This document shows positions 27,421 to 31,129 of a stretch of 58,678 nt of DNA, in pieces. The stretch is taken from NCBI GenBank assembly GCA_913045275.1, contig CAJWPG010000004.1:1-58678 (forward strand). Reading direction: 5' to 3'. The position numbers were made by a program, and so were the translations under genes. Source of the DNA: an uncultured Pelagibacteraceae bacterium. Lineage in GTDB: Bacteria; Pseudomonadota; Alphaproteobacteria; Pelagibacterales; Pelagibacteraceae. The notes beneath the pieces are model-generated. The model was not told where the DNA came from. It worked only from the letters and a program-made list of their open reading frames with translations, and made no database searches. Each line of letters opens with the position of its first letter. Position 1 is the first letter of the stretch.

Positions 27421-28749
27421 ATGCAAAAACATATTTGTATTGATAAAAAAATACCTCCGTATAATAAAATAATCCAAGTTAGTTCAGACAAAAGCTTATC
27501 AATAAGAACTGTTTTGCTAGCTTCTCAAGCTGTAGGTATTTCAAAAATTTCAAATCTTCTTGAGTCTGAGGATGTTTTAAACACACTAAAGACCATTAAA
27601 AAGCTTGGAATAAATTATAAAAAAAAAAAAAATTGTTATGAAATTTATGGTTTTGGCTTAAATGGTTTTAATCCTAAAAATAATACAGTAATTAATGCTG
27701 GAAATTCTGGAACACTTGGTAGACTTATACTTTCTTTGCTTATTAAAACTGATAAAAAAATTAAATTGATTGGCGATAAAAGCTTATCAAAAAGAGACTT
27801 TTCTAGAGTTGTAAAACCTTTAAGACTTTTTGGAGCCAATATAAAATCAAAAAACAATTGCTTGCCGGTAAAAATTCAAGGAACTGAATTTCTTAGACCT
27901 ATAAATTATGTAGAAAATATTGGTTCCGCTCAAATAAAAACAGCCTGTTGTTTTGCTGCATTGAATACTCCTGGAACAACATTTATACGTGCTAAAAAAA
28001 GTAGAAACCACACGGAACTGCTATTTAAATATTTGAAGATTCCAATTAAAGTAAAATCAAATAAAGAGTTTGATTTAATTGAGGTAAAAGGGTTACAGCA
28101 ATACAATGCTTTTAACTACTCAATTCCTGGGGATATCAGTTCAAGTGCTTTTTTTATTGTTCTAACTTTACTTTCAAAAAATTCAGAAATTACAATTCAA
28201 AATGTAAATATAAATAAAAGTAGAATTGGTCTTATAATAATTTTAAAAATAATGAGCGCCAAAATAACTTTTAAAAATAAAAGAATTTATAAAGGTGAAA
28301 CGACTGCAGATATTTTTGTAAAAAGTTCAAAAATATTAAAACCAATCAATTGTCCCTCGAGCTTAAACAGCTTTGCTATAGATGAATTATTATTAGTTTT
28401 TCTTGTTGTAGGCACAAAAACAAAAGGAATATCAACTTTTAAAAAATTGGGAGAATTAAACAAAAAAGAAAGTCCTAGATTAAATATAGCAATCAAATTT
28501 TTAAGAATGATTGGAATAAAAGTTTTAAGAAATAAAGATGATATTAAAATATACGGGAAACCTAATCTAGATTTAAAAAGAAACTTTCACGTAAAAAATT
28601 TTTTAAAAGACCACAGAATTTTTATGATGTCGTGTATTGCCGCCCTAACATTGGGCGGAAATTGGAAAATAAATGATAAAGATTCTATTAATACATCTTT
28701 TCCAAAATTTCTAAATGTTTTAAAAAATCTTGGGGCAAATATAAAATGA
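27421..28749 (+). CDS. aroA: 3-phosphoshikimate 1-carboxyvinyltransferase (EPSP synthase)
   Basis: Sixth step of the shikimate pathway. The 442 residues include VSSDKSLSIRTVLLAS, the PEP site NAGNSGTLGRLI (about 91-102), PGDISSSAFF and DHRIFMMSCIAAL near the C-terminus. Codons about 67-71 contain a run of fourteen A (27619-27632) encoding a lysine string, which is prone to slippage or sequencing error, but the frame is intact. It overlaps cmk by 4 bases; aroA-cmk-rpsA is a conserved order. Confidence 0.95.
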   Translation: MQKHICIDKKIPPYNKIIQVSSDKSLSIRTVLLASQAVGISKISNLLESEDVLNTLKTIKKLGINYKKKKNCYEIYGFGLNGFNPKNNTVINAGNSGTLGRLILSLLIKTDKKIKLIGDKSLSKRDFSRVVKPLRLFGANIKSKNNCLPVKIQGTEFLRPINYVENIGSAQIKTACCFAALNTPGTTFIRAKKSRNHTELLFKYLKIPIKVKSNKEFDLIEVKGLQQYNAFNYSIPGDISSSAFFIVLTLLSKNSEITIQNVNINKSRIGLIIILKIMSAKITFKNKRIYKGETTADIFVKSSKILKPINCPSSLNSFAIDELLLVFLVVGTKTKGISTFKKLGELNKKESPRLNIAIKFLRMIGIKVLRNKDDIKIYGKPNLDLKRNFHVKNFLKDHRIFMMSCIAALTLGGNWKINDKDSINTSFPKFLNVLKNLGANIK

Positions 28750-29402
28750 AAAAACGAAAAGATATTATTACTGTCGCAATCGACTCTCCTGCTGCCGCTG
28801 GAGGAGGTACTCAAGCCAAGTTAATAGCCAAACATTACAACCTTCAACATCTTGACACCGGTCGCATATATAGGCTTATTGGTAAACTGAAATTGGAAAA
28901 TCCTAAAAAATTCAACTATTCTTTAATTAGAAAAAAAATCAAAAATTTAAATATGAGTAGTTTACAAAATAAAAACTTATTATCTGATAAAGTGGCAACT
29001 TCAGCATCAATTATTGCTAAAGATAAAAAAATAAGAGATATAGTTCATCAATTTCAAAAAAAATGTGCTTATGCTCCTCCGTTGAAATATGCGGGCTCTG
29101 TACTTGACGGAAGAGACATAATTACTGTTCAAGTTAGAGATGCAATGTTTAAGTTTTTTATAACAGCAAGTCTTAAAGAGCGTACGAAAAGGAGATATAA
29201 GGAATTAAAAAATCTAAATAAAAAAATTAATTTAAATATTGTGCTTAAAAGCCTTAAAAATAGGGATAAATCTGATCGCGAAAGAAAACATGGTCCTCTA
29301 AAAAAAACAAAAGATTCAATCTTGATTAATACAACTAAATTAAGTAAGAAAGCGTGCTTTATGAAAATTAAAGATATTATGGATAGGAAATTAAAAGCTT
29401 AA
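28746..29402 (+). CDS. cmk: Cytidylate kinase with altered Walker A
   Basis: Phosphorylates CMP and dCMP. Length (218) and context (aroA before, rpsA after) are normal, and later motifs are intact: LDGRDIITVQV, LKERTKRRYKEL and a NRDKSDRERKHGPL lid. The P-loop is unusual: the family's GPxxSGKGT reads S14-P-A-A-A-G-G-G-T22, so the catalytic Walker A Lys is Gly20 and the first Gly is Ser14. The Lys codon would need two base changes, so a single sequencing error is unlikely. Another Lys (K25) lies three residues after the loop. Confidence 0.9.
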   Translation: MKKRKDIITVAIDSPAAAGGGTQAKLIAKHYNLQHLDTGRIYRLIGKLKLENPKKFNYSLIRKKIKNLNMSSLQNKNLLSDKVATSASIIAKDKKIRDIVHQFQKKCAYAPPLKYAGSVLDGRDIITVQVRDAMFKFFITASLKERTKRRYKELKNLNKKINLNIVLKSLKNRDKSDRERKHGPLKKTKDSILINTTKLSKKACFMKIKDIMDRKLKA

Positions 29403-31129
29403 TGGAAATTTACAAAGACTTATCTTCTCCAGCTAGTCAGCAATTCGAAAAATTACTAAACTCTCAATTATCAAAGAACAAAATAGAAGAAGGAAAGGTA
29501 ATTGAAGGTAAAATCACTAAAATTACAGAAAAATATATTTTCTTATTTATTCCAGGTTTAAAAAGTGAGCCTGTAATAGATATTAATGAAATGAAAATGA
29601 TTGGTATGCAAAATAAAATTGCAGAAGGAAAAATAATTTCGGTCTTATTGGAAAAGATTGAAGACAAAAATGGTGATGTAATAGTGTCTGCACAAAAAGC
29701 AAAAAAAATTAAAGGTTGGTATGAATTGGAAAAAGCATATGATGACAACGAATCTATTAATGGAAAAATAATCTCAAAGTGTAAAGGTGGGGTTATTGTA
29801 GAACACGTTGAAACAGAATCATTAATGTTTTGCCCAGGTTCACAAATATCAGATAAACCAATGAAAAATATTGATCATTTAATTGGGGTAGAACAAAAAT
29901 TTGCAATTATTAAATTAGACAAATTAAGAGGAAATGCCTGTGTATCTAGAAGACAAATTGTTTCTTCAAGTAAAAAAGAAGATAAAGCAAAAATAGTAGC
30001 AAAATTTAAAGTTGGAGACATCATTAAAGATGCGGTTGTCAAAGGCTACTCTTCTTTTGGGTGTTTTTTTGAAGTTAATAATGAAATTGATGTCTTGGTT
30101 CATCTTCAAGAAATTTCATACTCTAGAGTAAACCACCCAGATGAAATTTTTAATATTGGCGAAAAGCACGATTTAAAAGTAATTTCAATTGATGAATCAA
30201 AACTACAAATAGGATGTTCAATTAAACAACTTTCACCTGATCCATTTGAGCATATCTCAAATTACGAACAGGGGAAAAAATATAAGGTAAAAGTTGTTAA
30301 GATTGCGGATTATGGGTGTTTTTGTGAACTTGAACCAGGTCTAAGCACCTTACTTCATTCAAGCGAAATTAGTTGGACAAAAAAAAATATATCTGCAAAA
30401 AAAATATTTAAAGTAGGTGATCTTGTCGATTGTATTATTACAGAAATTGATAAAGAAAAAAGAAGAGTGGCAATTTCACATAAACTAACAATTGAAAATC
30501 CTTATTCATCTCTAGAAAAAAAACATCCAGTTGGATCGAAAATAGAAGGTATAGTTACAAACACAAATGAATATGCTGTTTACGTAAAACTAGGAAATTA
30601 TGATATAGACGGATTTTTACATGCTAATGATCTTTCTTATGCTGATAAACCAGAAGAAGAACTAAAAAAATATAAAAAAGGTATTAAATTAATAGTTAAA
30701 ATTTTAGAAATAAACAAAGACGAGTCAAAAATTAGAGTTGGATTGAAACAATTAGAAAAAGATCCATTTGATTGGTTTAAGGATAAGAAAGTAAATGATA
30801 CTATAACTATCCAGGTAATATCATCAGACAATAAAGGTTTAATGGTAAAACCAGAAGGTTCTGATTTACAATTATTAATTAAAAAATCACAAATCGCAGT
30901 AAGTTCAGCTGATGCCAGACCATCACGTTTTGTTGGCGGAGAGAGAATTGATGCTGCAATTGCTGAATTAAATTTTAATAAAAGAAAAGCAAGTTTAAGT
31001 ATTAAATTGCTTGAGGAGCTGATGAACGCTAAAGCTATAAAAGAACATTCTAGTCCATTGAGCGGCAAAAATTTACCTTTTTCATCGCTTTCTGATCAAC
31101 TAGATGATATAAAAAAAAATAAAGATTAA
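29402..31129 (+). CDS. rpsA: 30S ribosomal protein S1
   Basis: Binds mRNA and helps it onto the 30S subunit. The 575 residues contain about six S1 (OB-fold) repeats; those in the middle are clearest (GDIIKDAVVKGYSSFGCFFEV, YKVKVVKIADYGCFCEL, IEGIVTNTNEYAVYVKL), each with a VHLQE- or LLHSSE-like strand. Length is near E. coli S1 (557) and typical for Alphaproteobacteria. It overlaps cmk by one base. S1 matters here because few starts in the window show a strong Shine-Dalgarno. Confidence 0.96.
   Translation: MEIYKDLSSPASQQFEKLLNSQLSKNKIEEGKVIEGKITKITEKYIFLFIPGLKSEPVIDINEMKMIGMQNKIAEGKIISVLLEKIEDKNGDVIVSAQKAKKIKGWYELEKAYDDNESINGKIISKCKGGVIVEHVETESLMFCPGSQISDKPMKNIDHLIGVEQKFAIIKLDKLRGNACVSRRQIVSSSKKEDKAKIVAKFKVGDIIKDAVVKGYSSFGCFFEVNNEIDVLVHLQEISYSRVNHPDEIFNIGEKHDLKVISIDESKLQIGCSIKQLSPDPFEHISNYEQGKKYKVKVVKIADYGCFCELEPGLSTLLHSSEISWTKKNISAKKIFKVGDLVDCIITEIDKEKRRVAISHKLTIENPYSSLEKKHPVGSKIEGIVTNTNEYAVYVKLGNYDIDGFLHANDLSYADKPEEELKKYKKGIKLIVKILEINKDESKIRVGLKQLEKDPFDWFKDKKVNDTITIQVISSDNKGLMVKPEGSDLQLLIKKSQIAVSSADARPSRFVGGERIDAAIAELNFNKRKASLSIKLLEELMNAKAIKEHSSPLSGKNLPFSSLSDQLDDIKKNKD

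Follow-up and report, generated by a model that had tools for sequence, protein, structure and literature searches.

A Pelagibacteraceae lineage of CMP kinases without the Walker A lysine

Results

The cytidylate kinase (Cmk) encoded in the window (the whole stretch of 58,678 nucleotides that was analysed) lacks two Walker A residues, the lysine and the first glycine, and it belongs to a group of SAR11 proteins that share this loss and whose genes are under purifying selection. A hallmark residue of a conserved enzyme has genuinely changed, and it has done so across the lineage. We consider it quite probable that these lysine-less proteins represent a functional CMP kinase of a SAR11 family (Pelagibacteraceae, going by public record names), in which both residues were lost once.

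Family membership, fold and P-loop

The window gene is full length, as the preliminary description had stated: the product of 218 aa matched the Cytidylate_kin Pfam domain (PF02224) over positions 1–205 of 211, with 136.2 bits against a cut-off of 26. The score for the (d)CMP kinase equivalog of NCBIfam (TIGR00017) was slightly below its cut-off (133.2 and 135.55 bits, respectively). The AlphaFold2 model, obtained from an alignment of lysine-less proteins, had a mean pLDDT of 85.7, with uncertain loops near residues 126–128 and 181–190. Its nearest solved structures were CMP kinases (3r20, Z 24.7; 2cmk, Z 24.3; 3akc, Z 21.4). Solved CMP kinases gave Z values of 16–25 against the model, mostly above 20, while non-CMP kinases gave 15.4 and lower (adenylate kinases about 14), and the predicted fold of the window Cmk is that of an NMP kinase, of the same type as CMP kinases.

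The canonical P-loop of other Cmk reads G-P-x-x-x-G-K-G/S/T-T. The corresponding codons of the window are tct cct gct gcc gct gga gga ggt act (Table 1), and the gap-free alignment of the P-loop to E. coli Cmk places Gly20 at Lys18 and Ser14 at Gly12; the canonical Walker A pattern GxxxxGK[GST] is not matched, with Ser14 and Gly20 standing instead. The missing lysine, which had been noticed earlier, was confirmed by the GGA codon, the full-length reading frame and the agreement of the relatives.

Table 1. Features of the cmk region of the window, with coordinates in the whole stretch.
Feature	Coordinates	Strand	Basis or conservation
aroA, upstream neighbour; 4-base overlap with cmk	27421..28749	+	ORF, conserved synteny
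cmk, 218 aa	28746..29402	+	ORF, PF02224, predicted fold, clade dN/dS about 0.2
Altered P-loop S14-P-A-A-A-G-G20-G-T22	28785..28811	+	Codon reading, alignment
Ser14 codon TCT, replaces first Walker A glycine	28785..28787	+	Ser in 106/106 lysine-less proteins
Gly20 codon GGA, replaces Walker A lysine	28803..28805	+	Ala 100, Gly 6 among 106 lysine-less proteins
Lys25 codon	28818..28820	+	Q, E, L or R in 5/106
Arg40 codon CGC, candidate compensating charge	28863..28865	+	K/R in 105/106 lysine-less proteins
D121-G-R-D124, CMP-binding motif, intact	29106..29117	+	Alignment
Arg149-Arg150 (E. coli R157-R158), intact	29190..29195	+	Alignment
Lid motif R173-D-K-S-D177-R-E-R180, key Arg and Asp intact	29262..29285	+	Alignment
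rpsA (ribosomal protein S1), downstream neighbour	29402..31129	+	ORF, conserved synteny

Distribution of lysine-less Cmk

We surveyed Cmk in 297 genomes of the order Pelagibacterales. About 114 genomes in the family to which the window belongs carried a window-type Cmk, with roughly 48–85% identity to the window protein, and a public genome collection yielded 54 loci, whose titles were nearly all Pelagibacteraceae. Among the 106 distinct window-type proteins from SAR11, residue 20 was Ala in 100, Gly in 6 and Lys in none, and residue 14 was Ser in all of them. Both the glycine and the lysine of Walker A were kept in E. coli Cmk and in 113 out of 113 sampled lysine-bearing Cmk, namely the SAR11 types t2a, t2b, g3, fusion and f2 plus 30 other alphaproteobacterial proteins.

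Ala is thus the usual state of the clade at residue 20, and the Gly20 of the window is a minority variant limited to its near relatives (L125, L127, L128, L130 and L174). One of them, the independently titled contig L125 (NYYU01000013.1), carries a Cmk that matches the window protein at 100% identity. The title of this record names the Parcubacteria MAG ARS72; given the identity of the Cmk, the contig is probably SAR11 DNA misbinned into that MAG. Another variant, the divergent L089 (G164), had the more strongly altered P-loop DATAGSGSTS, with Ala14 and Ser20; it also has Leu25 and Asn121, the rest of this Cmk being intact.

The alignment of SAR11 and other alphaproteobacterial Cmk, suggested earlier as a check, placed the lysine loss in all window-type proteins and in no lysine-bearing sister type. 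Relatives with a normal GKGT loop, which would have pointed to an error, never occurred within the window type and were only found in the sister types, so the missing lysine is a trait of the lineage rather than an error. We also searched 385 genomes of the class with a DNA pattern for the lysine-less P-loop, limited to the window-like form of the loop; besides the window there were five matches, none of which translated to Cmk. No description of lysine-less Cmk in SAR11 was found in the literature searched (open-licence papers).

Evolutionary history of the loss

A tree of 96 Cmk was calculated with columns 14 and 20 left out, using a quick method, so that its support values are approximate. 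One change suffices for the lysine loss on this tree: the lysine-less group, including the Ser20 variant L089, had an SH-aLRT of 95, and the t2, fusion, g3 and f2 types and the other alphaproteobacteria, all lysine-bearing, fell outside. On this topology the loss is old and, in our sample, unreverted, and a single origin is the simplest account of it. The ancestral replacement of the lysine was most likely by Ala, and Gly20 is a later, local Ala-to-Gly step in the subclade of the window, made by the single base change GCA to GGA. A path of two base changes leading from AAA to GGA, the distance counted in the preliminary description, does not describe this history, as the lysine was already lost once in the ancestor.

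Selection and conserved active-site residues

Lysine-less cmk is under purifying selection, in agreement with the preliminary description: the median dN/dS was 0.20 (449 pairs with dS of 0.2–1.0), inside the range of the lysine-bearing SAR11 types (0.10–0.29). The codons of Ala20 span all four synonyms (GCT 46, GCA 43, GCG 8 and GCC 3), with the residue constant. The statement that the other motifs are intact also held, since eleven CMP-binding, catalytic and lid residues were kept in 105 out of the 106 lysine-less Cmk and the remaining protein ends at a contig edge. In particular, the CMP-binding residues S36, R41, R110, R131 and D132 of E. coli correspond to T38, R43, R97, R123 and D124 in the window (Thr at 38 is also usual in other alphaproteobacterial Cmk), and R173, D177 and R180 (R181, D185 and R188 in E. 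coli) were present in every lysine-less protein long enough to include them.

Gene copy number and locus

Only one protein in the genome of the window (83% complete) passed the PF02224 cut-off, and the second complete cmk that could have spoken against an active enzyme was not found there. The lysine-less gene was also the sole Cmk match in the one-contig genomes G011, G013, G020 and G026, and exactly one Cmk match was present in 210 of the 214 genus genomes that have a Cmk of any type. A scan for the related family PF13189 gave no evident second candidate, recovering the same genes or short, weak P-loop stretches.

The gene order aroA-cmk-rpsA, previously described as conserved, was shared by most relatives sampled, and 114 out of 120 lysine-less loci had it. 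All 18 t2b genes occupied this same place between aroA and rpsA, and all 32 t2a genes were located away from it. Genome G179 carried a t2b gene at the aroA-rpsA place and a lysine-less copy elsewhere; in G088 the lysine-less copy between aroA and rpsA (L088) was wrecked by many stops and an intact lysine-less copy was found elsewhere. Together with the single Cmk match in most genomes, whichever its type, this pattern looks like swapping between enzymes with one job. Damaged lysine-less genes were those of G159 and one of the two G088 copies, and the gene of G233 was frameshifted. Finally, most near-complete genomes apparently without cmk were also missing rpsA, so the locus is probably absent from these assemblies.

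Several other arrangements were observed. The intact G088 copy (L287:5538-13919) is part of an island that also contains NeuB and a HAD-like phosphatase, genes of the CMP-sugar type. Extra-locus lysine-less cmk genes adjoin ATP-sulfurylase in G241 (L289:3014-8915), G101 (L290:6131-12017) and G179 (L288:402-2103), and those of G241 and G101 are also near APS kinase, a sulfotransferase-like gene, an FAD/NAD-binding protein and a 304-aa protein. In several genus genomes (L186, L188-L195) aroA abuts rpsA directly, without an intervening cmk ORF, and some of these genomes encode a t2a Cmk elsewhere. Two other genera of the family have an aroA-cmk fusion in one reading frame (L124, L202 and L203; genomes G032, G007 and G001).

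Candidate residues for the lysine charge

Lys25, which had been put forward as a supplier of the missing charge, was rejected as a general substitute, because 5 of the 106 lysine-less proteins have Q, E, L or R in its place. A scan for basic columns in the Cmk alignment picked residue 40. Lys or Arg was found at this position in 105 out of the 106 lysine-less proteins, in L089, in 3 of 3 g3 proteins and in 81% of the f2 type, and was rare in other lysine-bearing types (0 of 32 t2a, 2 of 18 t2b, 0 of 3 fusion proteins and 1 of 30 other alphaproteobacteria). The 163 Cmk of the family comprised 106 with K/R40 only, 51 with K20 only, 5 with both and a single one with neither (L073, with Leu40 in an otherwise intact gene).

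Residue 40 (Arg in the window) follows the D-T-G motif and is aligned with Asp33 of adenylate kinase, which lies near the Mg-phosphate site. Placed by this alignment, it would be near the phosphates, and it is a better candidate than K25 for the substitute charge. As the g3 proteins and most f2 proteins carry both K20 and K/R40, the basic residue at 40 probably came first and permitted the lysine loss. The pattern is suggestive but falls short of proof, because few independent changes lie beneath it.

Discussion

CMP kinase is a housekeeping enzyme that recycles an RNA building block. In P-loop kinases the Walker A lysine is held to be near-indispensable, and proteins without it are usually taken to have lost their function. 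In the CMP kinase of Thermus, this lysine binds the beta-phosphates of ADP and CDP, bridging both, and also binds the CMP phosphate, while Arg153 and Arg171 sit at the phosphate being transferred (PMC7259600); loss of the lysine should therefore hurt. In mycobacterial dephospho-CoA kinase (CoaE), the K14A change lowered kcat by only 19% and raised the Km for ATP about 1.5-fold, and G8A, at the first glycine, made little change (PMC3019153), so the loss of the lysine in a P-loop kinase need not be fatal.

We infer that lysine-less Cmk very probably retains phosphate transfer to CMP: no other Cmk was found in four one-contig genomes, and CMP phosphorylation is therefore most likely preserved. 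Because the rest of the enzyme is kept, it probably works through a modified active site or a rearranged mechanism. We propose that the ancestor of this SAR11 family lineage lost the Walker A lysine and the first glycine once and that they stayed lost. The donor phosphates would be held mainly via P-loop backbone amides and the lid arginines (R149/R150, R173 and R180), and the bridging charge between the two nucleotides would be taken over by Lys/Arg40, which is located where helix 2 begins and was already present in lysine-bearing relatives; its earlier presence would have made the loss tolerable. This combination of backbone amides, lid arginines and residue 40 is offered tentatively, at somewhat less than an even chance. 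That the whole lineage has an active CMP kinase, with the lysine replaced for good and the charge coming from a pre-existing K/R40 on the acceptor side, is a possible but still doubtful reading.

An active CMP kinase may also have its charge elsewhere, in K/R131, K187, K168 or a potassium ion, or may rely on lid arginines and backbone without any substitute, which is conceivable though short of probable. Column 131 is K/R in 81 of the 106 lysine-less proteins and Pro in nearly all other Cmk, column 126 has changed from Gly to Thr/Ile, column 187 is K/R in all 105 lysine-less Cmk covering the site, and CoaE K14A was mostly active with no designed substitute (PMC3019153). However, 25 lysine-less proteins have Pro at 131, which makes K131 unlikely as the ancestral fix, and K168 and K187 are present in many lysine-bearing type-2 proteins as well.

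We consider it unlikely that these proteins use a different donor or acceptor (another NTP, polyphosphate or an unfamiliar nucleotide). Such a change would fit the altered P-loop, both ends of which changed together in 106 out of 106 proteins, and the extra copies adjoining ATP-sulfurylase (3 genomes) and APS kinase and sulfotransferase-like genes (2), but the CMP-binding residues are unchanged and the core copies stay between aroA and rpsA. The absence of two hallmark Walker A residues throughout the clade could also mean that phosphate transfer was lost and CMP binding kept for a regulatory or structural role; this is quite unlikely, as R149, R150, R173, D177 and R180 of the lid region, which should be important for transfer, do not vary, and genomes have one Cmk each, with lysine-bearing types at the same locus. 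An artefact of sequencing or assembly, or a gene in decay, has a negligible probability despite the few broken genes described above, being ruled out by the 106 distinct proteins, several of the genomes being single contigs, by Gly20 in close relatives and by the dN/dS.

In the very abundant SAR11, a housekeeping enzyme thus appears to have shed the lysine once and yet remained under selection, which makes lysine-less Cmk a natural test of the role of this residue and cautions that a motif alone is poor ground for declaring such proteins dead. Lysine-bearing and lysine-less relatives occur in one family, often at one locus, and provide ready pairs for comparison. If residue 40 did take over the charge, this would be a natural "with no lysine" P-loop kinase.

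Comparison with known systems

The window Cmk shares its predicted fold with E. coli Cmk (PDB 1CKE/2CMK) and the Thermus enzyme (3AKC), with Z values of 21–25, and it has the gene order, CMP-binding residues and lid residues of canonical Cmk. It differs from them in the Ser that replaces the first glycine, the Ala or Gly that replaces the lysine, and the altered loop after DGRD (G126 to T/I and P131 often K/R). The t2a, t2b and aroA-cmk fusion types belong to the same family (t2a and t2b also to the same genus) and likewise come as a single Cmk in each genome, with t2b occupying the locus of the window type. In contrast to the window type, these types keep the Walker A glycine and lysine, mostly lack K/R40 and have E or another residue at D121. 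From its residues, t2a (L215-L244) is another unusual Cmk, with the Walker lysine kept, Ala at window positions K136 and R146 (otherwise conserved basic residues), Thr at D174 and, in most members, Arg at window position 195.

Mycobacterial CoaE K14A is a P-loop kinase that likewise tolerates a Walker lysine-to-alanine change (PMC3019153). It is a laboratory mutant acting on another acceptor, whereas the change in the window type is natural and fixed. The WNK ("with no lysine") protein kinases lost a conserved catalytic lysine that is replaced from another position; their fold is unrelated to that of Cmk, and the analogy is one of idea only.
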